The position numbers were made by a program, and so were the translations under genes. DNA of 64,000 nucleotides, from positions 4,647,501 through 4,711,500 of the forward strand of contig NZ_CP089309.1 of the NCBI RefSeq assembly GCF_021228795.1, read 5' to 3'. Shown one piece after another: positions 1-10,907 of this stretch; within the stretch, counting starts at the first letter, position 1; each line of letters opens with the position of its first letter. This stretch comes from Thiocapsa bogorovii (GTDB lineage Bacteria; Pseudomonadota; Gammaproteobacteria; Chromatiales; Chromatiaceae). The notes below the pieces were generated by a model. That model searched no databases. It was not told where the DNA came from and worked only from the letters and a program-made list of their open reading frames with translations.

Positions 1-643
1 GACCGATCCCGGAACCGATGATCCCGGCGGGCAGCAGATGCGTGACCGGCACCCTCAACCGGTCCGGCGCCGAGCGCAATCCCCAGCGGCGGATCAGGAG
101 CGGGGAGCAGTTGTAGAGCGTCAACTCGGGATGCTCCGGCAGCCGCAGCCCTAGACCGTGCGAGTAGATCTGAATCCGGTCGCCGATGCGCAGACGCCGG
201 AGGACCGAATCCGGAAAGTCGATCAGGACGTGGTCGATCCCGCCGTGCTTGCCCGTCACCGTGCCCTTCTGGTCCGTGCAGGGGCCCGTCAGCACGCGCG
301 CCGCGTTGCCCACACAGGCGTAGGTGTTCAGCGCCAGATTGGCTGCATTCGGCTTCCCCTTGAGGGCGCGCTGGCGGCTCTCGACCGCGACGCCTGGCTC
401 CAGATGATCGGCCGCCAGGCCGACGCACGGGTCGCCGACCCGGTGGCTGATCACGATCCCGCCCGGTCCCGGAACCACCCGCGGTACCCCGTCGCGGCCG
501 ATCCGGTAGGGGCTGCTGCCCTGGGTCGGCGGGACGATCTCTCCCGCGACCGCGACCATGACCAGCTCGCTTAGATTCATCAGCGGGGTTCCGGCCCTGC
601 GGCGGGTCGAGGGCAACGGTGGTGCAAGTGGGGGGTGTTTCAT
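1..643 (-). CDS. DUF4438 family protein (partial, cut by window edge)
   Basis: The reading frame is open from an ATG at 643 to the left edge, giving 214 residues of the N-terminal part. After a short leader, the segment NLSELVMVAVAGEI, a P-G-x-GG-I-V-I-S-H-R-V-GDP block and then NAALNTYAC-like and KGTVTGKHGGIDHVLIDF segments match what I recall of DUF4438, a family with solved structures but no assigned function. The start ATG overlaps the stop of the upstream gene as ATGA (643-640), so the two are probably translationally coupled. It is the last visible gene of the minus-strand operon that begins at 8139. The biochemical role is unknown. The family call comes from remembered motifs and was not searched. 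Confidence 0.75.
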   Translation of the reverse strand, partial: MKHPPLAPPLPSTRRRAGTPLMNLSELVMVAVAGEIVPPTQGSSPYRIGRDGVPRVVPGPGGIVISHRVGDPCVGLAADHLEPGVAVESRQRALKGKPNAANLALNTYACVGNAARVLTGPCTDQKGTVTGKHGGIDHVLIDFPDSVLRRLRIGDRIQIYSHGLGLRLPEHPELTLYNCSPLLIRRWGLRSAPDRLRVPVTHLLPAGIIGSGIG

Positions 644-1482
644 GGCAGTCGATACCAGAAGGCGCTGGCGTCCTGCCAGACATCGTCTAGCCGATCTCCC
701 TCACCGCAGGACGACTCCAGGTCGCTTTCCAGATCGGGATCCGGTGTGTCGAGCGCTTCGCTCAGGAAGGCCCGCGGGGCCACGAGATGCACCACCGCGA
801 GGTCGAGTCCGGTCCAACACAATTCCAACGCGCCGCTGCGTGCGAGCAATGGGGTCAACTGCCGACGCAGCGGGCGGGACTGCTCGGAGTCGACCTTGCG
901 GCAGTCGACCCCGCAGGCGGCCAGCAAGCGGCAGAGCGCCGGGGCCTCGTCGCTCGGCTCGGCCAGGGTTAGGATCAAGGGGCGGTAGCGGCTCATGGCC
1001 GCCGCCAGTGCGGTCGCGTCCAGCGCGCCGCCCAACAGCGGCAAGGCCGGCTCCAGATCCGGCGCGGTCCCGAGCAAACGTTGCTCCAGATCCAGTCCGA
1101 AGCGCTCGAAGCGTTGGATCACCTGCGAATCGACCTCCTTCGGCATGAAGGACTCGTCGATTCGCTCCCCGGCCCAGTAGAGCCTCAAGACGGGAAGACT
1201 GAGATCCAGCCGTGCCCGTTCCCATTGGTCCAGCGAGGCCGGATCCGGCATCGGCGTGCGTGCATCCGCGAAGGGGTCGGCCAGCAGATCCTGCGGGTGC
1301 AGCCGATAGTGCGTGGTGTTGTCGAGGATCGACCACAGCCGGGGCACCAGACACACCCGCAACTCCTCGGCGAGGCGCAACGCCAGCATCGGCCCGTGGC
1401 GGGCCAAGGCAAGCCGCACATCCAGGACGCACAGCCAGCCCTTGGTGTCGACCGTGACCTGAAACGGCGGGAGCGGACCCAT
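640..1482 (-). CDS. Hypothetical protein (280 aa), unknown family
   Basis: I do not recognise this protein. It is soluble-looking, with no signal peptide or membrane segment. It is rich in Leu, Arg and Asp, with a slightly acidic tail (repeated D-L-E-S-D near residues 255-265). The start at 1482 is preceded by GGAG at a good distance, 23 bases after the stop of the upstream zincin-like gene. Its stop overlaps the start of the DUF4438 gene. Position and coupling suggest it works with the other products of the 8139-1 operon, but nothing in its own sequence indicates a reaction. Confidence 0.7.
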   Translation of the reverse strand: MGPLPPFQVTVDTKGWLCVLDVRLALARHGPMLALRLAEELRVCLVPRLWSILDNTTHYRLHPQDLLADPFADARTPMPDPASLDQWERARLDLSLPVLRLYWAGERIDESFMPKEVDSQVIQRFERFGLDLEQRLLGTAPDLEPALPLLGGALDATALAAAMSRYRPLILTLAEPSDEAPALCRLLAACGVDCRKVDSEQSRPLRRQLTPLLARSGALELCWTGLDLAVVHLVAPRAFLSEALDTPDPDLESDLESSCGEGDRLDDVWQDASAFWYRLP

Positions 1483-1505
1483 GGCGCAGCTCCGAGGTCA
1501 AGCAC

Positions 1506-2609
1506 TTAGGAGGCGAGCGCCAGGGAGGGCTTGCGCTTCTTCAGCCCCAGTGTCGAGCGCATGGCGCTGCCGACACCCGGGAAGGCGCGGCCCTCGGCGG
1601 TCATGCGGTAGGCGGCGATCCAGGCTTCGGCATGCGCGCCGAAGGGGCGTGCTTCGGCGCGGAAGACCAGCGGGTCGGCGGTCGTCTCGAAGTCCTGATC
1701 CGCGATCCATTGCAGGATGCGCCTGCCGCTCTCGGCCATCTTGGCCCGCTGCGAGAGCTCCGCCATGCCGCCGAGGTGACGGTTGGAGACCACCTCGATC
1801 ACGTCCCACTTGGTGTTGGCGTCGAACGCCTTCTTGATGTCGGGCTGATCGAACAGATCGAGCAGGGTGCTCAGGTAGTGGCCCGTCTCGTGGGTCAGCG
1901 CCAGGATGTTGCCGTAGCTCGCGCGATCCAACGCGAAACGCAGATCGGTGCCGAGCCGCTGAATGCTCGCCAGATTGCCGAAGGGCCGGTCGTCGATGTC
2001 CTGCGAACCGCGGATCACCTCCCCGACGGTCATATCCCGGAAATACTGAGCCATCGCCGCCATGAAGGCGACGAGCTGGCGGTGGAAGCCCTGGTTGACC
2101 ACCGCCCCGGCCGGTGCCGGTGCGCTGCCGTAGTTGAAAACGCGTCGATAGGCGATCATGCGATCGCGCAACGCATAGCGCAGCGGCTTCCATTTTTCCA
2201 GGATGTAGAGCGACCGCGCGCCCGGCCCGCGCTGCACCCGCATCCGCCCGAGTTGGAAGAGCTGACGCAGCACATCGGCCACCTGAAACGCCTTCATGCG
2301 CTCGTGCTGATAGATGAAGTACAGCTCGGCGGCGGCATGGAGCTGGCTGGGGATGACCGACTCGTCGAAATCCGGCACCAGATGCGCGTAGGGTAGTTCC
2401 CCGAACGGCAGAACGCCCTTCGCACCGAACCCGATCAGGTCGGCGAAGCCGAAAGTGGAATCGCCCGACGCCCCTTTCTGGAGTTCGCCGAAGCGTTTCT
2501 CGAACTCGCCTTCGAGGTTCTTGCGTTCCTCCGGCGGCAACTGCTCGAGCTGCTCACGCAGAAAGCGCTGCCACAGGCGGGTGATGGTTTCGTAGTTTTC
2601 GTAGGCCAT
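1506..2609 (-). CDS. Zincin-like putative metalloprotease (HETGH...ETTAD)
   Basis: This is a 367-residue soluble protein. From the chosen start, residues 240-244 read HETGH, which fits the HExxH zinc motif, in the context ALTHETGHYL. About 65 residues downstream ETTAD (308-312) fits the ExxxD motif that supplies the third ligand in gluzincins. I infer a zinc-dependent peptidase fold; the family is not one I can name and the substrate is unknown. The start at 2609 (MAYENYE) is preferred over an upstream ATG at 2624 because GAGGAG lies just before it. It sits between the CBS gene and the 280-aa unknown, and is the second zincin-like gene of this operon. Confidence 0.75.
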   Translation of the reverse strand: MAYENYETITRLWQRFLREQLEQLPPEERKNLEGEFEKRFGELQKGASGDSTFGFADLIGFGAKGVLPFGELPYAHLVPDFDESVIPSQLHAAAELYFIYQHERMKAFQVADVLRQLFQLGRMRVQRGPGARSLYILEKWKPLRYALRDRMIAYRRVFNYGSAPAPAGAVVNQGFHRQLVAFMAAMAQYFRDMTVGEVIRGSQDIDDRPFGNLASIQRLGTDLRFALDRASYGNILALTHETGHYLSTLLDLFDQPDIKKAFDANTKWDVIEVVSNRHLGGMAELSQRAKMAESGRRILQWIADQDFETTADPLVFRAEARPFGAHAEAWIAAYRMTAEGRAFPGVGSAMRSTLGLKKRKPSLALAS

Positions 2610-2735
2610 GGGTAATCTCCTCAATCAGAAGGCGCCATTCCGGGCCGAAAGCGGCGGAATGCCCGGGCAGACGTCGGCCGTGCAGTGCCGGGAGGTGTCC
2701 AAGGCGTTCGATTCGGGCACCATGGCCGTCTTTCC
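2610..2735 (-). other. Intercistronic gap with possible hairpin
   Basis: This 126-base gap is the longest inside the left-end operon. An inverted repeat (ATTCCG at 2637-2642 and CGGAAT at 2655-2660, with inner CCG/CGG pairing around an AAAG loop) could form a stem-loop between the CBS gene and the zincin-like gene. There is no T-run typical of a terminator, so it may be an mRNA-stability or attenuation element. The function is inference. Confidence 0.3.
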
Positions 2736-3275
2736 TCAGCTCAATGTTTTCTCGATGTTGTTGATTGCGGACGCGATCCAGCGTAGCAAGCCGCCGACCG
2801 TCAAGACGCCTTCGATGCTGTTCTTGCCTTGAATGACGACGAGTCGGCGATAGCCCGTCCTCGAGAATTTCGAGAGGGCGTCGCGGACGGTGTCCTTGGC
2901 ATCGATGCACTCGCACTGGCTGATCTTGGTGGCCCATTTGGTGACCGGATCGCTGCCCGCCTGCTGACCGATCGCAGTCATGCATTGGGACGGCGTAATC
3001 ATTGCGATGACGTTCCTCTTCGGATCCGAGACGAAAACCGTGGCAACCCTTTGGCCGACCATCGTGTCGACCGCGTCACCGACGCTTCGGCCGTCGTCGA
3101 CCGCGATGACGCGAGACTGTCGATTCGGCTGAAAGACCTGGCTGATGGGCACATCCAGAAGCTGTGTTTGAAATAGCTTCCGCACATCCAGCTTCGGACG
3201 GCTCGTTACCGCGTTCGTTAGATCTTCCATCCGTTTGTGATAGAGCGTCCGTGCAGCGGGTGTTTTGTTGGGCAT
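2736..3275 (-). CDS. CBS-domain pair protein
   Basis: A 179-residue protein made almost entirely of two CBS motifs. The first lies around residues 55-110 (sequence around VIAVDDGRSVGDAVDTM and ATVFVSD, ending in MITPSQCM). The second lies around residues 120-175 (CIDAKDTVRDALSKF, then GYRRLVVI and EGVLTVGGLLRW). CBS pairs bind adenosine ligands such as AMP, ATP or SAM and usually regulate a partner. No catalytic domain is attached, so a stand-alone ligand-sensing or regulatory role in this operon is likely. The start at 3275 has a very strong GAGGAGG ribosome site. Two cysteines lie close together at the start of the second repeat (QCECID), which is unusual and could be redox- or metal-sensitive. 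Confidence 0.88.
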   Translation of the reverse strand: MPNKTPAARTLYHKRMEDLTNAVTSRPKLDVRKLFQTQLLDVPISQVFQPNRQSRVIAVDDGRSVGDAVDTMVGQRVATVFVSDPKRNVIAMITPSQCMTAIGQQAGSDPVTKWATKISQCECIDAKDTVRDALSKFSRTGYRRLVVIQGKNSIEGVLTVGGLLRWIASAINNIEKTLS

Positions 3276-3320
3276 GAGTCATCCTCCTCGAGGCGCGCCG
3301 CGCCGCGGACCGTTCGTCGA

Positions 3321-5051
3321 TCAATCGCAGTCACCGGTATCGGGGACATCATTCGCCAAGGCGTTGAGGCTCGATTCATGGTGAGGCGGCACCGGGATGC
3401 AGGGTTCCGGGCACTCGTCCGGTAGGCTGATATCGAGACCGCGTACGCTTTCGATCGCGCGCTCGACCAGGTCGCGGACCCCTTCGAGTACCGGATCGGT
3501 CAGTGAGCAGGAGGGTGCCATGGTGCGCAAGAGGCTCTCCCAGTGCATTTCGTTGTCTCGCTGTAGGCAGAGCTCTTGGTGGATCGCCCGGAGGTCGTAG
3601 TTGGATAGCCCGGATGTGGGCTGCCCGTTGAACCAGAGTTGGTCTCGACTTGCCTTGAGGACCTTTTCCAGATTGCTGTCGGACGGGATGCAGGAAGCCA
3701 CGGCGCTTCTGCTGCCCGAGGGGCCCTTCAGATATTCCTCGATCACCACGGCATAGGCCGCTGCTCGCTGCTCCGGCTCGCTCTTACCATCGGCGTCGGC
3801 TCCCATGGCGTATAGATCGATTGCCCGATCCAGGTCGTAGACGATCTTGTCCAGCATGACTTGGCAGAGGGTGCGGTCTTGGGCGCAGTCGCAGCCGAGG
3901 TAGCAATCCGCCATCTCGGCCAGGCGTCCGCGCAAGGCGATGATCTCGAGCAGGCGGAACGTGCCGTTGTCCGGTCCGCCCGTGCCGTAAAGGCCATAGA
4001 AGACGATTGGTGGTCGGGCGACGAACAGCAGCCGGTAGCCGCTCGCATTGAAGTTGAAGGCATCCAAGAACAACTGGACGGCCGTTAGGTAGGCGCTGAG
4101 TGGCGGGGACGCGGGCGCGACTAGGTTGCGACTGACTCGGATCAGCCTCCGAAAGCGGCCGAGGGTGAGATGCGCCGTCGCCCCGAGTGCACGCAGATCA
4201 TCGGACGATCCGGCGGTCGCATGATGGATGAGCTGGTCCAGGCTGCGTGCGACGTCGATCTCCTGGAACAAGCTGCGAAGGTCCGTCTGACCGGCGGCGT
4301 CCAATCGACTCAGAAATTGCTGGTAGGCCAACAATCCGCGTGGCCAGTCGTTCGGCCCGTAGCTGCTCTGGGTGGTTCCGACGAAGTTGCGCAGGGCGTG
4401 AATGATCGCGTCGCGACGCGCCTGCAGCTCGCTTGCCGGTGCTTGGATCAGGAAGCGCCCCGCATAGCCGATCCTCGAAAGCGCTTCTCCCATCTGGACC
4501 AGGATCACCCCAGCAACCTCGTCCAGACTCTTCGCCAACTGTCTATAGTGAACGCTGAGATTGGGGGTCAGGGCACCGACGTAGCGGGCCACGCGGGCGT
4601 ATTCCCCGAGTAGACGGCGTGCACCCATGGCTCTGTCGCGCTGCCAGGGATCGAGCGCGAAGCGAGCGGCGTTCGTGCCCTCGTTGATCACCTCGCGCAA
4701 GGTGTGAGACCAGCCGCGCAGCTCGGGGTGGATATCCTTCAGCAGGGCATTTGTCGTCAACGCTGTGAGATCCTGCTCGACATCGCCGCGGGCCTGGCGT
4801 AGCTCCGCGGACGTGGATGTGTCGACAGCAGTCTGTGTCTCGATCCGTGCGACCTTGAAGAACGGCAGGCCGGCGGCCTCCTGATCCAGCGCGGCTTGTT
4901 CGTCGGCATACCGCGCGCGCAGTGCATTGGAGATGGCCTCCGGGTCACGCGGATCGGTGACGCGCAGGTGACGGCGGATCAGGTTGTCCAAGGCGACGGC
5001 CGCCTGCGAGCGCTCGGCGGGGAGCGGACTGGTGTTGGTCTGTTGGCTCAT
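3321..5051 (-). CDS. Hypothetical protein (576 aa), unknown family
   Basis: The frame stays open upstream to about 5501, but that part lies inside the next gene. The likely start is the ATG at 5051 (MSQQTNTS), which follows GAGGTGAGA by 3 bases and comes 16 bases after the stop of the upstream gene. The protein is mostly predicted helical and soluble. It has a hydrophobic stretch around residues 340-360 (YRLLFVARPPIVFYGLYGTGG) and a cysteine cluster CDCAQDRTLC near 390. I recognise no family. It is the largest gene of the operon and is flanked by a zincin-like protein and a CBS-pair protein. A structural or scaffold role is possible but unsupported. Confidence 0.75.
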   Translation of the reverse strand: MSQQTNTSPLPAERSQAAVALDNLIRRHLRVTDPRDPEAISNALRARYADEQAALDQEAAGLPFFKVARIETQTAVDTSTSAELRQARGDVEQDLTALTTNALLKDIHPELRGWSHTLREVINEGTNAARFALDPWQRDRAMGARRLLGEYARVARYVGALTPNLSVHYRQLAKSLDEVAGVILVQMGEALSRIGYAGRFLIQAPASELQARRDAIIHALRNFVGTTQSSYGPNDWPRGLLAYQQFLSRLDAAGQTDLRSLFQEIDVARSLDQLIHHATAGSSDDLRALGATAHLTLGRFRRLIRVSRNLVAPASPPLSAYLTAVQLFLDAFNFNASGYRLLFVARPPIVFYGLYGTGGPDNGTFRLLEIIALRGRLAEMADCYLGCDCAQDRTLCQVMLDKIVYDLDRAIDLYAMGADADGKSEPEQRAAAYAVVIEEYLKGPSGSRSAVASCIPSDSNLEKVLKASRDQLWFNGQPTSGLSNYDLRAIHQELCLQRDNEMHWESLLRTMAPSCSLTDPVLEGVRDLVERAIESVRGLDISLPDECPEPCIPVPPHHESSLNALANDVPDTGDCD

Positions 5052-5067
5052 GGTCTCACCTCGATGT

Positions 5068-6360
5068 TCAGGCGGCGATTGCCAGTGGGTCGTGTGCAAC
5101 GGCGCTCGGGGCCTTGGACGGTTTGGATAGATGACGAATGACGAGGTCGGAGAGCGGGCCGGCCGAGGCGCCCCTGCCCAGTGCGTAGCGGCTGGCACTG
5201 ACCAGGAAACGCGGCGGCAGATCGGCCGGAATTCGATTGTTCGCCAGCGCTTTGGCGCCGTCGCGGATGGCGCGCTCGTCCTCCCTGCGGAAGAGGATGA
5301 CGTCCGCCAGCGCCCGCTGCGCCAGCCCGCGCCGGGTTTGGAAGGCGACCTCGTCGACCACGGCGGGGATGACGCCGTCGGCGCTCGAGAGTAGGACCGT
5401 GGGGATTCGGTGGCCGCGCGGGAGCCGGTAGAGGGTCTTCCAGACCTCTCGCACCCGACCGGCCTCGGCGTCGAATCCCATCCGCGCCAACATCTCCGCA
5501 AGGATCAACGCGCGCAGATACCCGGTCGGATGCGCGCCGCCCGGCTGGTAGGTCACCGTCCGTTGAGCAGGATGGGCGAGGAAGTCCAACATGCCCCAGG
5601 CCGCCGCCGGTCCGCCGAGGAGGAGGGCCGCCAAGTCTGCGAAGATCTCCTTGTGCCAGCGCCGGTAGATGCTCCCGACCAGGGCGGGCGCATTGGTCCG
5701 CGCCAGGCGCCGGACGACGGCATCCTGGTTCTCCTGCCAGAGCCCCAGGTCGGCCTGCAGGTTGTGCGACACCTCATGGAGAAAGACCGCCTGCCAGGGG
5801 TTGTCGCGGTCCCACGGGATGCGGATCAACGGAAAGGGGTTGGGCTCGCCGAGCAGCCGAGACAGGGCGATGCCGCGGCGCGTGGTCGCGGGGGAGTAGC
5901 CGTGCTCCATATAGGTCAGGGGCTTCAGCAGGGGGCCGCGAAAGACCAGGGGCGCGGCACGGCGCACGGCGGCGTAGCAGTCCATGGCGATGGCGTCATG
6001 AGCCGCCAGCGCCGGAGCAAAGGCCGATCCGCGTTGGCTGAAGACCTCGAAGAACATGCCGAAGGCGCGTCGTGCACGGTCGATCTCGCGCTCCACCAGG
6101 GCCAAATAGACCAGCACTTGATGAGGCGAGGATGCACGCCAGTGCTGTTTCAGGAACGCCACCCGCGCCGCGACCTGCCGGTCGATTTCGCGCAGACGCC
6201 GATTGGCCGCTGCGAAATGCGCAGCCGAGGGGGCGTAGGGTCGATCCTGTGCCCGCAACCCGACCCGCTCGGGCGTAAGGTTCGACAGACGACGCGCCCT
6301 CGCGATCAGCGTTTGGACCTTGTCCTGTAGGAAGGGTCGTACCGTTGCGGGCATGGTCAT
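5068..6360 (-). CDS. Zincin-like putative metalloprotease (HEVSH...EIFAD)
   Basis: A 430-residue protein without a clear signal peptide. Residues 195-199 read HEVSH (FLHEVSHNLQADLG) and residues 238-242 read EIFAD. The HExxH plus ExxxD pair, 43 residues apart, is the gluzincin signature. The region before the zinc motif (IPWDRDNPWQAVFLHE) looks like the edge strand and active-site helix of a protease. The C-terminal third is helical and Arg/Ala-rich. The start at 6360 has GGAGA about 9 bases upstream; an ATG two codons later is an alternative. It lies directly after the two acidic/basic proteins, so those are candidate substrates. That link is inference from position. Confidence 0.78.
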   Translation of the reverse strand: MTMPATVRPFLQDKVQTLIARARRLSNLTPERVGLRAQDRPYAPSAAHFAAANRRLREIDRQVAARVAFLKQHWRASSPHQVLVYLALVEREIDRARRAFGMFFEVFSQRGSAFAPALAAHDAIAMDCYAAVRRAAPLVFRGPLLKPLTYMEHGYSPATTRRGIALSRLLGEPNPFPLIRIPWDRDNPWQAVFLHEVSHNLQADLGLWQENQDAVVRRLARTNAPALVGSIYRRWHKEIFADLAALLLGGPAAAWGMLDFLAHPAQRTVTYQPGGAHPTGYLRALILAEMLARMGFDAEAGRVREVWKTLYRLPRGHRIPTVLLSSADGVIPAVVDEVAFQTRRGLAQRALADVILFRREDERAIRDGAKALANNRIPADLPPRFLVSASRYALGRGASAGPLSDLVIRHLSKPSKAPSAVAHDPLAIAA

Positions 6361-6399
6361 CGTCGTGTCTCCGCTCGAGCGGCCGGGTTACTGGCGTCC

Positions 6400-7131
6400 C
6401 TATTGGTACGCCCAACGCACGCAACGGCGACGCATCCCGCTCTTCGGCCGAGCCGCGCGCGCGGCCGCGCGCCGCACTTGCCGTGGATCGGCCATGGTGC
6501 GATAGGTGTTGCGCGCGAGTTGTCGGACCGCGGTTTGACCGGTCACGGGCCGACCTTGCGCCACTTGCCGCGCGATATCGGCCCCGGTCTTGCGCACCAC
6601 CGTGCCGGCCGTGCGCAGCAACTGCCGGGCCGCCGGGTTCGCATGGACCGCCTGCGCGGTCCCCGCGAGGCCACGGATCAGCTGAGGCGCGACCCGCATG
6701 ATGGCTTGACCGGCTTGGGGGAGGAGGCGGGCGGCCAAGGGCACCAGTGCGCCCAAGAAGGCCTCGGCCTCGGCCTCGTCTTCGGCCTCTGCGGCGAGGG
6801 CCGCGAACTGATCCATTTGATCAGGGAGGAGCCCCGACAATCCGCCGCCGACAGTGTTGCCGAGAATTCCACCGGCCAAGGCGCCCCCGGGGCCACCGAG
6901 ACCCAGGCCGATGGCAGTTCCGGCTGCCGTTCCGGTGCCCTGGATCGCTCCGCGTGCGGCATTCAGGGCGACGCGCCGCTGCACGGAGCCTGGTCGGGTC
7001 AACCAGCCCCAAGCGCTACCGAGGAATTCGTCATCCTCGAAGAGGTCGTCCTCGTCGAAGACATCGAAATCCAAACCGGCATCCCAGTCGTCGAAAGCAT
7101 CGGCTTCGAGCAGGTCGTAAGCATCGTACAT
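6400..7131 (-). CDS. Acidic-head/basic-tail protein with glycine-zipper segment, copy 2
   Basis: This 243-residue protein has an extreme charge layout. Among residues 1-38 there are 17 Asp/Glu and no Lys/Arg. Residues about 60-105 form a small-residue, Gly/Ala-rich hydrophobic stretch (AGTAIGLGLGGPGGALAGG), a glycine-zipper type segment able to insert in membranes. The last 65 residues carry many arginines (RRAAARAARPKSGMRRR). It shares this plan with the product of 7159-8139, and the two are probably paralogues by ancient duplication. AGGAGAA precedes the ATG. No enzyme domain is visible. It could be a bacteriocin- or effector-like precursor, a polyanion-binding protein or a structural component; none of these is shown by the sequence. 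Confidence 0.75.
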   Translation of the reverse strand: MYDAYDLLEADAFDDWDAGLDFDVFDEDDLFEDDEFLGSAWGWLTRPGSVQRRVALNAARGAIQGTGTAAGTAIGLGLGGPGGALAGGILGNTVGGGLSGLLPDQMDQFAALAAEAEDEAEAEAFLGALVPLAARLLPQAGQAIMRVAPQLIRGLAGTAQAVHANPAARQLLRTAGTVVRKTGADIARQVAQGRPVTGQTAVRQLARNTYRTMADPRQVRRAAARAARPKSGMRRRCVRWAYQ

Positions 7132-7158
7132 GGCGGTTCTCCTGCCGGTTCGAGCGGC

Positions 7159-8139
7159 TCAGGCGGCGCTGATGGTGATGCGGGCCGGACCTTGGATGAC
7201 GTAGGTGCGCGGGCGGACAAGTCGCCTACGCGCCACGGTCGAGATCCGCTGCCGCGCGATCGGTGAGGGCCGGGCGAGCTTTCGGGTCATGGACGGGCTG
7301 CGCGCGACCTTGGCCGCGGTGCGACGCACCGCCTTCACTGCGGTTGCCGGAGATGCCGCCTTGGCCGCGGCGGTTCGCTTGACGCTCTTGGCGATTTTGG
7401 GCATCGCCCTAACAGCGGCCGGTCCGCGGGTGTTGGTGAGGCTCTTGGCGGCGCGCGACATCTGTTTGACGACCTGCTTGCGGGCCGACGGCGAGAGTCG
7501 GGCGGCCTTGGACTTGAGCACTGTGCGTGCGGTCAGGCCGGCGACGATCGGCAGGGCTCGCGGATCCCGTGCGGCCAATTCGGCGAAGGCGTCGAGTGCC
7601 TCTTCCTCGCTGGCACCCTCGGCCCGGAGGCGCTGCACCAGGTTGGCGCCTTGGCCAACCAGACCGGCCACGCCACCGACGGCCTGGGCGTAGGGGTGCG
7701 GGATCAGGCTGGCCACTTGGGACACGCCGCGGGCGATGTTCCCGACCATGGGGGCCGCACGGCGCACGGCCTTGAACACGCGCCCGCCGACCTTTTTCAA
7801 GCCCTTGAGTAAACGTCCGAAGAACTCGTCGGCATCCTCCGCGCCCAGCGCGTAGGCCATGACGTCCTCGAGCGCATCCTCGGCGTCCTCGTAGTCGTCT
7901 TCGTAGCCTTCGAATCCATCGTCGAATTCGTCGTAGGCCTCGAAGTCGTCCATCGCCTCGAGGTCGAAGTAGGACTCGTCGTCGTAGGCCTCCGCCTCCA
8001 TGCCCTCGGCAAAGTCATCTTCGAACTCGTCCTCGAACTCGTCCATGCCGAGGTCTTCGAACTCGTCGCCCATCAATGCGGCCCCTTCGGCCTCTCCGGC
8101 TGCGAAGTCGTCGTAGAGATCGTCTTCGAATGCACCCAT
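7159..8139 (-). CDS. Acidic-head/basic-tail protein, copy 1
   Basis: First gene of the left-end operon, 326 residues. Residues 1-95 are dominated by Asp, Glu, Phe, Tyr and Ala in repeats such as DEFEDEFEDDF, with almost no positive charge. A short amphipathic basic helix follows (RLLKGLKKVGGRVFKAVRRAAP, near 110-130), then a Gly/Ala hydrophobic stretch (about 140-165). A long Ala/Lys/Arg/Ser/Pro tail of about 130 residues resembles histone H1-like or nucleic-acid-binding tails. GATGAGGAGG precedes the ATG. It opens the operon, so a promoter should lie in 8140-8486. I do not recognise a named family; similar low-complexity acidic proteins can be hard to align. The polarised charge suggests self-association or a masked cationic C-terminus. 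Confidence 0.77.
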   Translation of the reverse strand: MGAFEDDLYDDFAAGEAEGAALMGDEFEDLGMDEFEDEFEDDFAEGMEAEAYDDESYFDLEAMDDFEAYDEFDDGFEGYEDDYEDAEDALEDVMAYALGAEDADEFFGRLLKGLKKVGGRVFKAVRRAAPMVGNIARGVSQVASLIPHPYAQAVGGVAGLVGQGANLVQRLRAEGASEEEALDAFAELAARDPRALPIVAGLTARTVLKSKAARLSPSARKQVVKQMSRAAKSLTNTRGPAAVRAMPKIAKSVKRTAAAKAASPATAVKAVRRTAAKVARSPSMTRKLARPSPIARQRISTVARRRLVRPRTYVIQGPARITISAA

Positions 8140-8486
8140 GGCGCTGCCTCCTCATCGAGGTTTCTCGGATGTTCAGGAATCCTTCGGAAGCGGACCCCCC
8201 GTATCTCGATCGACAAGGGGATCGACAAGGGCGCCGGCTTTCCGGACGCGACCCGGTGTCGCTGATGCAAGGGTGGCTCGTGCTCAGCAATCGCGCTAGG
8301 TGCACGTTTTTGGGCGCTTTTTTGAAGGCGTCCGTTTGTGCTACGGGAAAGTGCGGAGCACGCCGCAGGTGTCTCATGGAAGGCGGCGGAGCGATTCAAC
8401 GGGGATTTCGCGCGTTGCACGGAGAAAATTCGAGCGCAGTCGGTATACCATCGGCAGATCCTATTTCCCCTCGAGAAGCTCCCGTC
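8140..8486. promoter_or_regulatory. Divergent intergenic region, 347 bases
   Basis: The region separates the minus-strand acidic-protein operon from the plus-strand cytochrome gene, so it must hold promoters for both. Part of it (about 8300-8340) is T-rich compared with the surroundings. I could not pick convincing -35/-10 hexamers or an operator. The frame of the cytochrome gene is open upstream through this region, but no signal peptide would result from the earlier starts. Confidence 0.4.
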
Positions 8487-10907
8487 ATGGATCTGCGCGT
8501 CCTCTGCCTCGCCCTCATGCTGATGCCCTCGGTGCAGGCCGCGGATGTCCCCGTCGAAGCCGCATCCGGATCCGCGGCAGCAGATCCGCATCTGGACCCG
8601 GAGCGGGCACAGCGGGGCTACACGGGCGCCGCGGTCTGCGCGGAGTGCCACCAAGCGGAGTTTGATCTCTGGAAGGGTTCCGACCATGACCATGCAATGA
8701 CGGAGGCTACGCCGGAGACCGTCCTCGGCGACTTCGACGACGCCGAGATCGAGGCGCACGGCGTCAAGTCCCGTTTCTTTCGTCGCGACGAGGCTTTCTT
8801 CGTGCAGACCGACGGACCCGACGGGGAGCTTCGGGACTATCCGATCCGCTACACCTTCGGCTGGTTTCCGCTGCAGCAATATCTGATCGAGTTTCCGGGC
8901 GGGCGACTCCAGGCGCTCGGGCTGGCTTGGGATGCGCGTCCGCCGGAGCAGGGCGGCCAGCGCTGGTTCCATCTCTATCCAGACGCCGACCCCGATGCGC
9001 CGATGGACCACGACAACCCGCTGCATTGGACAGCCGCAGACCAGACCTGGAACTATCAATGCGCGGACTGCCATTCGACGGATCTTCAGAAGCGCTACGA
9101 CGCCGAGCAACAGGTCTATGACACCCGCTATGCCGAGATCAACGTCGCCTGCGAGGCCTGCCACGGACCCGGTGCCCGTCACGTCGAATGGGCCAAGGCG
9201 AAGGCCGCCGGAGACAACGCCGAGTCGGCTGCGGCGACCGATGCCGCCGGCCGCGGTCTGCTGGTCGATCTCAAAGATCGCGACGGCGGTGTCTGGCAGA
9301 TCAATCCCGAGACGGGTAAGCCGGCGCGATCCGTGACCCGTTCGCCTCAAGGTGGCCCCCATGTCCAGACCGAGACGTGCGCCCGCTGTCACTCCAGGCG
9401 CGGGCGTATCCAGGACGAGCTGACCCCCGGAGAACCCCTGCATGAGGGTTTCCGACTCGCCCTGCTCGATCCCGCGCTCTACTTCCCGGATGGCCAGATC
9501 AAGGACGAGGTCTTCGTCCATGGCTCCTTTATCCAGAGCCGGATGTACCATCAAGGGGTCGTCTGCATCGACTGCCACGAGCCCCACAGCCTCAAGCTGC
9601 ATGCCGACGGCAACGCCGTCTGTGCCCGCTGCCATACGGCCACCCGTTACGATTCACCCGAGCACCATCACCACCCGGCCGGCTCGACCGGTGCCGCGTG
9701 CGTGGCCTGTCACATGCCCCAGCGCTACTACATGGTCGTGGACGAGCGCGCCGATCACAGCCTGCGCGTGCCGCGGCCGGATCTGTCCCTGAAGCTTGGC
9801 ACCCCCAATGCCTGCAACGCCTGTCATCAGGACAAGGATGCCGCCTGGGCGGTGAACGCGGTGGAGACCTGGTATCCGGACCCGGCGTATCGGGGGCCCC
9901 ACTTCGGCGAGGCGCTGCACGCGGCCGACACCAATGCCGCGGATGCGACCGCGCGTCTGCTCGCACTCGCGGCAGACCCGCAACAGCCGGCCATCGCCCG
10001 CGCCAGCGCCCTGGCACGCCTCCGCGACCACCCGGATCCGACTGCACTCATGACCGTGCGACGACTGTTGGCCGATCCGCAGGCGCTGGTGCGCGCGAAA
10101 GCGGTGCGTGTCCTGGACCTTGCGGACCTGCAGACGCGGGTCGAGCTGGCCTGGCCGTTGCTGTCCGATCCGGCGCTCACGGTGAGGCTGGAGGCCGCTC
10201 GCGTCCTGGCGCCCGTGATGAGGCAAGGGATCGGGGGCGAGCTGGCGGAGCGTCTGAGTGCCGCCTTGGAGGCGTACGCGATCGCGGAGATGGTGAATGC
10301 CGACCGACCCGAGGCGCATCTGAATCTTGGTCTGCTGGCGTTCGAGGCCGGCGAGCCCGTCATGGCCGAGCAGGCGTACCGCAACGCCTTGAGCCTCGAT
10401 CGGAGGTTCACCCCGGCACGGGTGAATCTGGCCGACCTCTATCGGGCGCTGGGCCGCGAGTCCGAGGCCGAGGCGGAGTTGATGGCCGGGCTTGCGGCCG
10501 AGCCCGTCACGCTGTCCGAGCGCGCCGACCTGCACTACGCGCTGGGTCTTGCGCAGGTCCGCTCGCAGCGGCTCGACGCGGCCGTCGAAGCGCTGGCCCG
10601 TGCCGCCGAGCTGTCCCCGCAGAACAATCGCTATGCCTATGTCTACGCCGTGGCACTCGACAGTGCCGATCGGACCCCGGAGGCCGTCTCCGTGCTGGAA
10701 GCCGCCCGAGAGCGCTTCCCGAGCGATCGCGATATCCTGATTGCCCTCATCCAATACAACGCCAAGCTCGAGCGAGCGGATGCCGCCGAGCGCTGGCTTG
10801 AGATACTCCGCGTCCAAGCCCCGGGCGACCCCGTTCTCATGCAGCTCGAAGGGCAGATCGAACCTCTGCGGGATCCCGGTCAAACGCGGACTCCGCCCGG
10901 CGGATGA
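8487..10907 (+). CDS. Octahaem cytochrome c with C-terminal TPR region
   Basis: From the ATG at 8487 the product has 806 residues and begins with a Sec signal peptide (cleavage after SVQA, about 18). Eight CxxCH haem-binding motifs follow at residues 51, 192, 222, 298, 360, 379, 405 and 443 (CAECH, CADCH, CEACH, CARCH, CIDCH, CARCH, CVACH, CNACH). The spacing recalls the cytochrome c554/DmsE-like multihaem group. Residues about 490-580 look like HEAT-type helical repeats (ARASALARLRDHPDP, then RAKAVRVLDL), and about 590-790 are TPRs (HLNLGLLAFEAGEP and following). It should act in periplasmic electron transfer, with the repeats binding a partner. A catalytic activity is not evident. It stands alone, convergent with the HlyD gene 17 bases downstream. 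Confidence 0.9.
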   Translation: MDLRVLCLALMLMPSVQAADVPVEAASGSAAADPHLDPERAQRGYTGAAVCAECHQAEFDLWKGSDHDHAMTEATPETVLGDFDDAEIEAHGVKSRFFRRDEAFFVQTDGPDGELRDYPIRYTFGWFPLQQYLIEFPGGRLQALGLAWDARPPEQGGQRWFHLYPDADPDAPMDHDNPLHWTAADQTWNYQCADCHSTDLQKRYDAEQQVYDTRYAEINVACEACHGPGARHVEWAKAKAAGDNAESAAATDAAGRGLLVDLKDRDGGVWQINPETGKPARSVTRSPQGGPHVQTETCARCHSRRGRIQDELTPGEPLHEGFRLALLDPALYFPDGQIKDEVFVHGSFIQSRMYHQGVVCIDCHEPHSLKLHADGNAVCARCHTATRYDSPEHHHHPAGSTGAACVACHMPQRYYMVVDERADHSLRVPRPDLSLKLGTPNACNACHQDKDAAWAVNAVETWYPDPAYRGPHFGEALHAADTNAADATARLLALAADPQQPAIARASALARLRDHPDPTALMTVRRLLADPQALVRAKAVRVLDLADLQTRVELAWPLLSDPALTVRLEAARVLAPVMRQGIGGELAERLSAALEAYAIAEMVNADRPEAHLNLGLLAFEAGEPVMAEQAYRNALSLDRRFTPARVNLADLYRALGRESEAEAELMAGLAAEPVTLSERADLHYALGLAQVRSQRLDAAVEALARAAELSPQNNRYAYVYAVALDSADRTPEAVSVLEAARERFPSDRDILIALIQYNAKLERADAAERWLEILRVQAPGDPVLMQLEGQIEPLRDPGQTRTPPGG

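Follow-up and report, generated by a model that had tools for sequence, protein, structure and literature searches.

A conserved, uncharacterised operon of charge-polarised proteins with a predicted zinc protease and a sharply bounded divergent stretch in Thiocapsa bogorovii

The window analysed in this study is a stretch of 64,000 nucleotides from Thiocapsa bogorovii (contig NZ_CP089309.1, positions 4,647,501 to 4,711,500 of the forward strand), whose genome is complete (5.65 Mb). Window positions are numbered 1–64,000, and labels of the form L0xx denote the loci compared, L002 being the own locus. An operon lies at the left end of the window. Its first two genes encode the charge-polarised proteins PolA (7159..8139) and PolB (6400..7131), and these are followed by ZinA (5068..6360), U576 (3321..5051), a CBS-pair protein (2736..3275), ZinB (1506..2609, or with a start at 2624), U280 (640..1482), and the 5′ part of a DUF4438 gene (1..580, or with a start at 643), which crosses the left end of the window and occupies L002:11618-12580 as a whole. 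All eight genes are on the minus strand, and the gaps between them are 16–126 bases when the first-named starts are used. The original prediction had described eight packed minus-strand genes. They are present as placed, but the operon continues leftwards with four more genes on the same strand. The description of the genes as mostly unfamiliar, including a 576-amino-acid (aa) unknown, was confirmed, as PolA, PolB, ZinA, U576, ZinB, and U280 (six of the eight) matched nothing in Pfam or NCBIfam at E up to 1. The identity of DUF4438 was likewise supported by Pfam (E 2.5e-48). The nearest named relatives at this locus were Thiocapsa marina and Thiocapsa sp. KS1 (Chromatiaceae).

The conservation of the operon was studied by an alignment scan with ZinA over 84,980 named genomes, which gave 188 relatives. 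The best 80 of the 188 by ZinA were kept, so that type 2 is under-sampled. Together with the window's own locus, 81 loci were analysed; type 1 and type 2 (L091–L100) are labels of this analysis. Genes were called with a codon-usage script and not taken from curated annotation, and clusters are single-linkage BLAST groups. No ZinA was called in L088, and PolA of strain KS1 (L014) contains a run of X, that is, unread bases. Pol was found in 76 of the 81 loci, in one to three copies, ZinA in 80, ZinB in 74, U576 in 66, U280 in 64, a LuxR-type gene in 56, DUF4438 in 49, the protease Ser in 28, a cluster labelled "GIY" in 19, the protein C11 in 11, and a methyltransferase in 10; all remaining families occurred in at most 13. 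Where enough flank was available, Pol and ZinB shared the locus of ZinA in 72 of 72 cases each, and the gene-neighbourhood check suggested by the original prediction thus showed that the families co-occur elsewhere as a conserved set. In type-1 loci with enough flank, U280 was present in 63, U576 in 61, and DUF4438 in 49 of 64. The ten type-2 loci kept ZinA, with Pol in 9/9 and ZinB in 8/8 where the flank sufficed; U280 and DUF4438 were found in 0/8, and U576 was replaced by C11, a different protein. This is a genuine operon, conserved and as yet uncharacterised.

Its distribution is rare and patchy. A search with ZinB as bait matched 7 of the 195 genomes from the order, the own genome included; ZinB was whole in five of them, and the other two had no more than a ZinB-like domain within a different cluster. 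The same bait matched 3 of 398 genomes in a draw from the phylum, again including the own, and 6 of 292 in a cyanobacterial set, of which two had been found previously and one carried the other cluster type described below. The record titles of the ZinA relatives named Proteobacteria, Cyanobacteria, Actinobacteria (Pseudonocardiaceae, Lentzea), and Chloroflexi (Anaerolineae, Caldilineaceae). The number of phyla was at least four for Pol together with ZinA, at least three for ZinB, and at least two for U576 and U280; ZinB was not seen in the Chloroflexi loci, where contigs were short. Five plasmid records held ZinB and two held ZinA, and no ZinB was found in phage records and viral contigs. Furthermore, the pairwise distances of ZinA, U576, ZinB, and U280 correlated at 0.73–0.88 across 62 loci, and the value for ZinA and ZinB (0.88) exceeded all of 200 permutations, the highest of which gave 0.12. 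This suggests that the four genes evolve as a unit, although, without a host-gene control, vertical descent alone could suffice.

The claim that two proteins are charge-polarised was upheld, PolB being less pure. PolA consists of an acidic head, a mildly hydrophobic middle, and a basic tail free of Asp and Glu (D/E) with the C-terminal sequence GPARITISAA. Its first 110 residues contain 48 D/E and 1 Lys/Arg (K/R), its last 130 contain 0 D/E and 32 K/R, and the D/E-free run of 134 residues extends to the C-terminus. PolB belongs to the same family and has a Gly-rich middle, with 3 D, 5 E, and 22 K/R in its last 130 residues. A profile search of the own genome found only these two members. Polarity was measured on 115 Pol proteins of at least 180 aa against 672 other proteins of the same loci (180–450 aa), and 109 of the 115 were more polarised than the most polarised control. 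The mean charge per residue of the 115, by thirds, was −0.30, +0.02, and +0.21. Their longest D/E-free run averaged 115 residues, compared with 27 in composition shuffles, and its median in type-1 Pol was about 120. In addition, 67 of the 96 type-1 Pol, and thus 67/115 overall, had the motif G-P-V/A-x-I-x-I or a near variant (family GPVxIxI) in their final 25 residues, versus 0/672 controls. The heads of type-2 Pol had Glu-rich repeats, such as EFEGE. Complete Pol proteins were mostly 180–440 aa long. The most hydrophobic 19 residues of Pol were mild (median 1.26; at least 1.6 in 9/121), and the N-terminus was strongly hydrophobic in 2/121. In PHROGs, Pol matched only at E 0.027 or weaker.

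The HExxH motif of ZinA was found in 80/80 of the locus set, a figure biased by the scan, in which one of the two patterns was HEV[AS]HNLQ. In the loci obtained with the ZinB bait it was present in 8/8, and L018, L102, L120, and L121 come from genomes outside the 80. The downstream ExxxD was also present in 80/80 and, in the ZinB-bait loci, in 8/8, one reading EMFSD. A glutamate ligand in a downstream ExxxD is the mark of gluzincins. In the ZinA model (predicted template-modelling score 0.86), one helix carries HExxH close to its start, and the ExxxD glutamate belongs to a helix further on. ZinA is predicted to be a zinc protease of the gluzincin type, and it is the only predicted protease that all loci examined have in common. 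Among 33 ZinA members, the best Pfam match was at E 0.031 (CsoSCA_N), with DUF2268 at E 0.21 in one member; 33 ZinA and 41 U280 members together gave only scattered Pfam matches at E 0.025 or weaker. Profiles of ZinA, ZinB, U280, and U576 searched against the PDB gave a best E of 0.29. Two zincins had been expected in the operon. ZinA is credible by motif, but ZinB was rejected, since HExxH is kept in only 5 of 74 family members, the own included. The model of ZinB is all-helical, and in the majority of close pairs ZinB was the best conserved of the proteins.

The comparison covered 16 close pairs, which overlap and are not independent. In 3 of the 16, about 2 kb of DNA from the interior of U576 through the slot gene to the next gene had mostly 34–72% identity, with much more similar flanks. 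In the window, this divergent stretch spans 2610..4860, its right edge being uncertain by 250 bases, and comprises U576 from about residue 65–150 on, with the conserved N-terminus outside, and the slot gene. The slot is the variable position between U576 and ZinB, and the CBS-pair gene is its local occupant. Between the own locus and T. marina, 41 of 50 blocks of 250 bases were 86–98% identical, and the nine from about residue 65–150 of U576 to the start of ZinB were 34–69%; the proteins were 59% (U576), 97% (ZinA), and 99% (ZinB) identical, and the CBS gene had no counterpart. Between Microcystis aeruginosa and M. novacekii, the same interval had 46–72% identity and ended at about the ZinB start, with 91–100% outside; the last two blocks had 34 and 0%, where the second sequence may run out. 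The Leptolyngbya/Lyngbya-titled loci had 55% in U576 and 95% in ZinA and ZinB. Their module DNA was 38–72% identical, with a mixed right-edge block of 79%, a right flank of 84–94%, and a left flank of 88–94% beside U576, which fell to 71–80% and lower towards and beyond Pol. The Acaryochloris pair was less sharp (U576 73%, slot 24%, ZinA 92%, ZinB 97%).

The slot gene had the lowest conservation in 10 of the 12 pairs where both members have it, with one tie and one pair in which it did not, and in Thiocapsa and Microcystis it diverged together with U576. The divergent U576 alleles are still alignable (55–73%) and homologous. We read the divergent stretch as the replacement of a putative specificity module by allele swapping. 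A Cys cluster was found in 54 of 66 U576 members. For the slot gene of the window, a CBS pair with a Cys cluster had been claimed; the CBS domain was confirmed by Pfam (E 1.1e-11), but the QCEC of the cluster reads HLKC in Thiocapsa sp. KS1. A U576 of 769–820 aa occurs in L021, L068, L075, and L081. The slot gene is missing from L021, L068, and L081, which gives the impression of a partner fused to the long U576. The length difference was not general, as the median length of U576 was 618 aa in 14 loci without a slot gene and 598 aa in 49 with one. C11 was rejected as a relative of U576 (hhalign probability 0.4), and U280 was rejected as a PIN domain (hhalign probability 0.2 against 20 PIN proteins; 99 in a PIN split-half control). 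U280 is fast-evolving and uncharacterised.

Left of the window, DUF4438 is followed on the strand of the operon by genes for a 192-aa protein (L002:10825-11403), Ser, a trypsin-fold protease (L002:9984-10820), an S-adenosylmethionine methyltransferase (L002:9103-9954), and a LuxR-type helix-turn-helix protein of 137 aa (L002:8501-8914). The LuxR-type gene was present in 42 of 50 loci with enough flank; of the 56 loci that have it, 40 carry it downstream in the orientation of the operon, 15 carry it in divergent orientation just upstream of the first Pol, and 1 carries it elsewhere. The best PDB matches of Ser were glutamyl endopeptidases (E 6e-17, 203 residues aligned), and its catalytic motifs were found in 28/28 members. 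H221 and T198, which we take to be the V8 specificity positions, were invariant in the 20 aligned of the 28. Ser is thus likely a protease of the glutamyl-endopeptidase type (S1B) with a predicted preference for Glu. Directly upstream of Ser, 22 of 28 loci had a small gene (77–235 aa), with a 4-base overlap in 14. This gene, which is L002:10825-11403 in the own locus, possibly encodes an inhibitor or a chaperone.

We propose, with a probability of about 0.35, that the operon is a recognition or antagonism cassette in which Pol tails are unmasked and U576 and the slot partner provide the specificity. Pol would be made as charge-masked proproteins, in which the acidic head blocks a basic, presumably helical tail that could bind membranes or nucleic acids. 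ZinA would release or trim this tail, and in a subset of loci the co-encoded Ser could shred the Asp/Glu head and leave the E-free tail intact. U576 and the slot partner would set the specificity, ZinB, together with U280 in type 1, would act as constant partners, and the small LuxR-type protein probably controls expression. Masking relieved by ZinA or Ser would explain the polarity, the D/E-free tails, and the linkage to a protease. The original prediction of a masked basic tail trimmed by co-encoded zincins stands in part: the D/E-free runs, the ZinA linkage, and the Ser of a subset of loci fit it, but its second zincin was refuted. The specificity role is assigned to U576 and the slot because they differ sharply between some close relatives while the flanks are conserved. 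A recognition role would explain this divergent stretch, which points to recognition rather than storage. Furthermore, nuclease and cell-wall enzyme genes beside the core in some relatives, namely an M15 peptidase with a peptidoglycan (PG)-binding domain (L098), VanY (L027), and Endonuclea_NS_2 (L093), were counted in favour of the cassette, which probably spread horizontally. It is doubtful, though conceivable, that the operon represents a new conflict or self-recognition system of at least four phyla, in which metalloprotease-unmasked proproteins and an allele-exchanged U576/slot would decide which cells or partners are recognised.

Several results weigh against a recognition or antagonism cassette. 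No immunity gene was identified. PADLOC, run on 10 proteins (9 of the operon and 1 of a relative), gave only weak matches of Ser (E 0.0015 and 0.065) and nothing for Pol, ZinA, ZinB, U576, and U280. For the two modelled window proteins, no solved structure matched at E 0.001 or better in Foldseek, and VIA-align found no convincing relative for either, which is not proof of a new fold. In 12 of the 16 close pairs, U576 trailed the ZinA–ZinB mean by no more than 12 points; in one of these, the Burkholderia pair, the drop was confined to the 3′ end of U576. The slot is not alone in its rapid change, since U280 also diverges quickly, with 66% in the pair from Roseateles; what distinguishes the stretch is its sharp borders. 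Moreover, in loci with wide flanks Ser was present in 20/44 of type 1 and 0/6 of type 2, and such a patchy protease is not a general unmasker. The Glu share of D+E in the heads was 0.43 with Ser versus 0.40 in type 1 without it, and long D/E-free tails also occur without Ser. Finally, 14 of 15 genes 3′ of type-2 ZinB had no acidic-aromatic patch, and several of them were ordinary-looking.

That last result bears equally on another explanation, in which the acidic head is a tag by which Pol and various enzymes (cell-wall peptidases, nucleases, a protease) are loaded for sorting or delivery, and a machinery of ZinB, U576 or C11, and ZinA exports the tagged proteins without a signal peptide. In genome G793 (7.4 Mb), from the cyanobacterial set, the DNA pattern for WLFE[A/T]P occurred 3 times, each N-terminal and within about 5 kb downstream of ZinB, compared with 0 for the backward pattern; the polarised protein upstream of ZinA in this genome, which the Pol profile does not match, starts with MTQDRLFEAP. 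Acidic heads were also seen on a trypsin-type protease (L052), VanY (L027), the M15 protein with the PG-binding domain (L098), and a 424-aa protein (L120), and a strongly hydrophobic N-terminus was found in 0/28 Ser and 0/11 other cargo-like proteins tested. However, sharing of the head was a minority: 1 of the 15 genes 3′ of type-2 ZinB passed the strict test, and the head regex fitted 2/194 operon slot genes versus 1/547 others, although this regex is insensitive, as it detects only 52/121 Pol. In G787, a second tag pattern matched 5 times, as often as its backward control, and by eye no transport family was recurrent except an ABC-transporter-like one in 13 loci, which is a common family. 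Because of the 14 genes without the patch and the failed second tag, delivery of cargo is kept as a rival and not as the lead, and we consider it rather unlikely.

Two further explanations, both improbable in our judgement, posit a structure inside the cell or at its surface. If the oppositely charged ends polymerised or phase-separated into an intracellular assembly or storage body, with the proteases governing its turnover, the charge complementarity of head and tail, the one to three Pol genes in 76/81 loci, and the 119/121 Pol without a strongly hydrophobic N-terminus would be accounted for. The bounded divergence of U576 and the slot, the fast change of the slot, and the toxin-like neighbours in some relatives would be left unexplained. 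A surface or receptor structure under pressure from phages or grazers, built or trimmed by Pol and ZinA, with U576 and the slot varying because they are exposed, would agree with a divergent module between conserved flanks and with the patchy spread. A mean hydropathy of at least 1.6 over 19 residues was reached by 31/66 U576, 41/64 U280, and 26/80 ZinA, by segments that may be in membranes or merely buried helices. However, a strongly hydrophobic N-terminus was found in 0/66 U576, 0/80 ZinA, and 0/74 ZinB (U280 4/64, DUF4438 6/49), and no export gene family was noticed by eye among the locus clusters.

A different type of cluster (L019:3737-19127, L020, L101:8611-18782, and L122) carries the ZinB-like domain in proteins of 608–645 aa. 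Subtilases are present in it (shown by Pfam in L019 and by annotation in L101), as are large multi-domain proteins, one with C70, amidase, and trypsin in 1273 aa and one of 1277 aa with EndoU near the ZinB-like domain (L122); EndoU was found in this cluster type only. One copy lies on a Tolypothrix plasmid. Downstream of ZinB, an M20 peptidase or amidohydrolase was seen in the type-2-like loci L091, L097, L102, L093, and L121, on the basis of Pfam in L091 and L102, of two M20 matches in a mixed scan that fit L091 and L097, and by eye in L121 and L093. The "GIY" cluster, a label given by eye, was rejected as GIY-YIG, as Pfam matched neither of the two members scanned; outside it, L022:17236-17871 (E 0.0014) and L121:11039-11473 (E 0.0096) gave weak matches to GIY-YIG that did not reach the curated cut-offs. 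The genome G000:C1 had one VipB gene and 33 PIN-family matches (32 above the cut-off), the latter suggesting many toxin–antitoxin pairs. Upstream of the operon, the divergent neighbour at window positions 8076-10907 on the plus strand consists of a long reading frame in which CXXCH motifs are numerous, and by eye it resembles a multihaem cytochrome.

No published description of the operon was recognised in the literature searched, which was mostly outside subscription journals. As the Pol proteins, ZinA, ZinB, U576, and U280 of the window also had no match in Pfam, NCBIfam, or PADLOC, the operon is considered new. Like polymorphic toxin and contractile-injection effector loci, it has nuclease or cell-wall domains nearby in some relatives and one sharply different part; it differs from polymorphic toxins in that the U576 alleles stay alignable and no immunity gene was identified. 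An accessory of contractile injection with a sheath gene in every operon genome does not agree with the data, as neither PF04984 nor PF05943 was found in 6 of the 15 genomes searched, the completeness of these six being unstated; one of the 15, G787, holds only the other cluster type. In FxSxx-type peptide-processing systems (Kaur et al. 2020, PMC7159879), a zincin accompanies a variable precursor, with a proposed link to biological conflict, likewise here; those precursors are small, whereas Pol, when complete, are mostly 180–440 aa. Unlike in FxSxx systems as described there, no radical-SAM, vWA, MoxR, or AP-ATPase was noticed by eye in clusters of at least five genes, for which no profile search was made. 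Ser resembles the glutamyl endopeptidases V8 and Bacillus 1p3c in its conserved catalytic motifs, and it differs from them in its small upstream gene and in having no strongly hydrophobic N-terminus. The divergent module makes the function of the operon directly testable by allele exchange. Acidic pro-regions are known to silence cationic peptides, and if masking holds, the Pol proteins would be a bacterial parallel to them.

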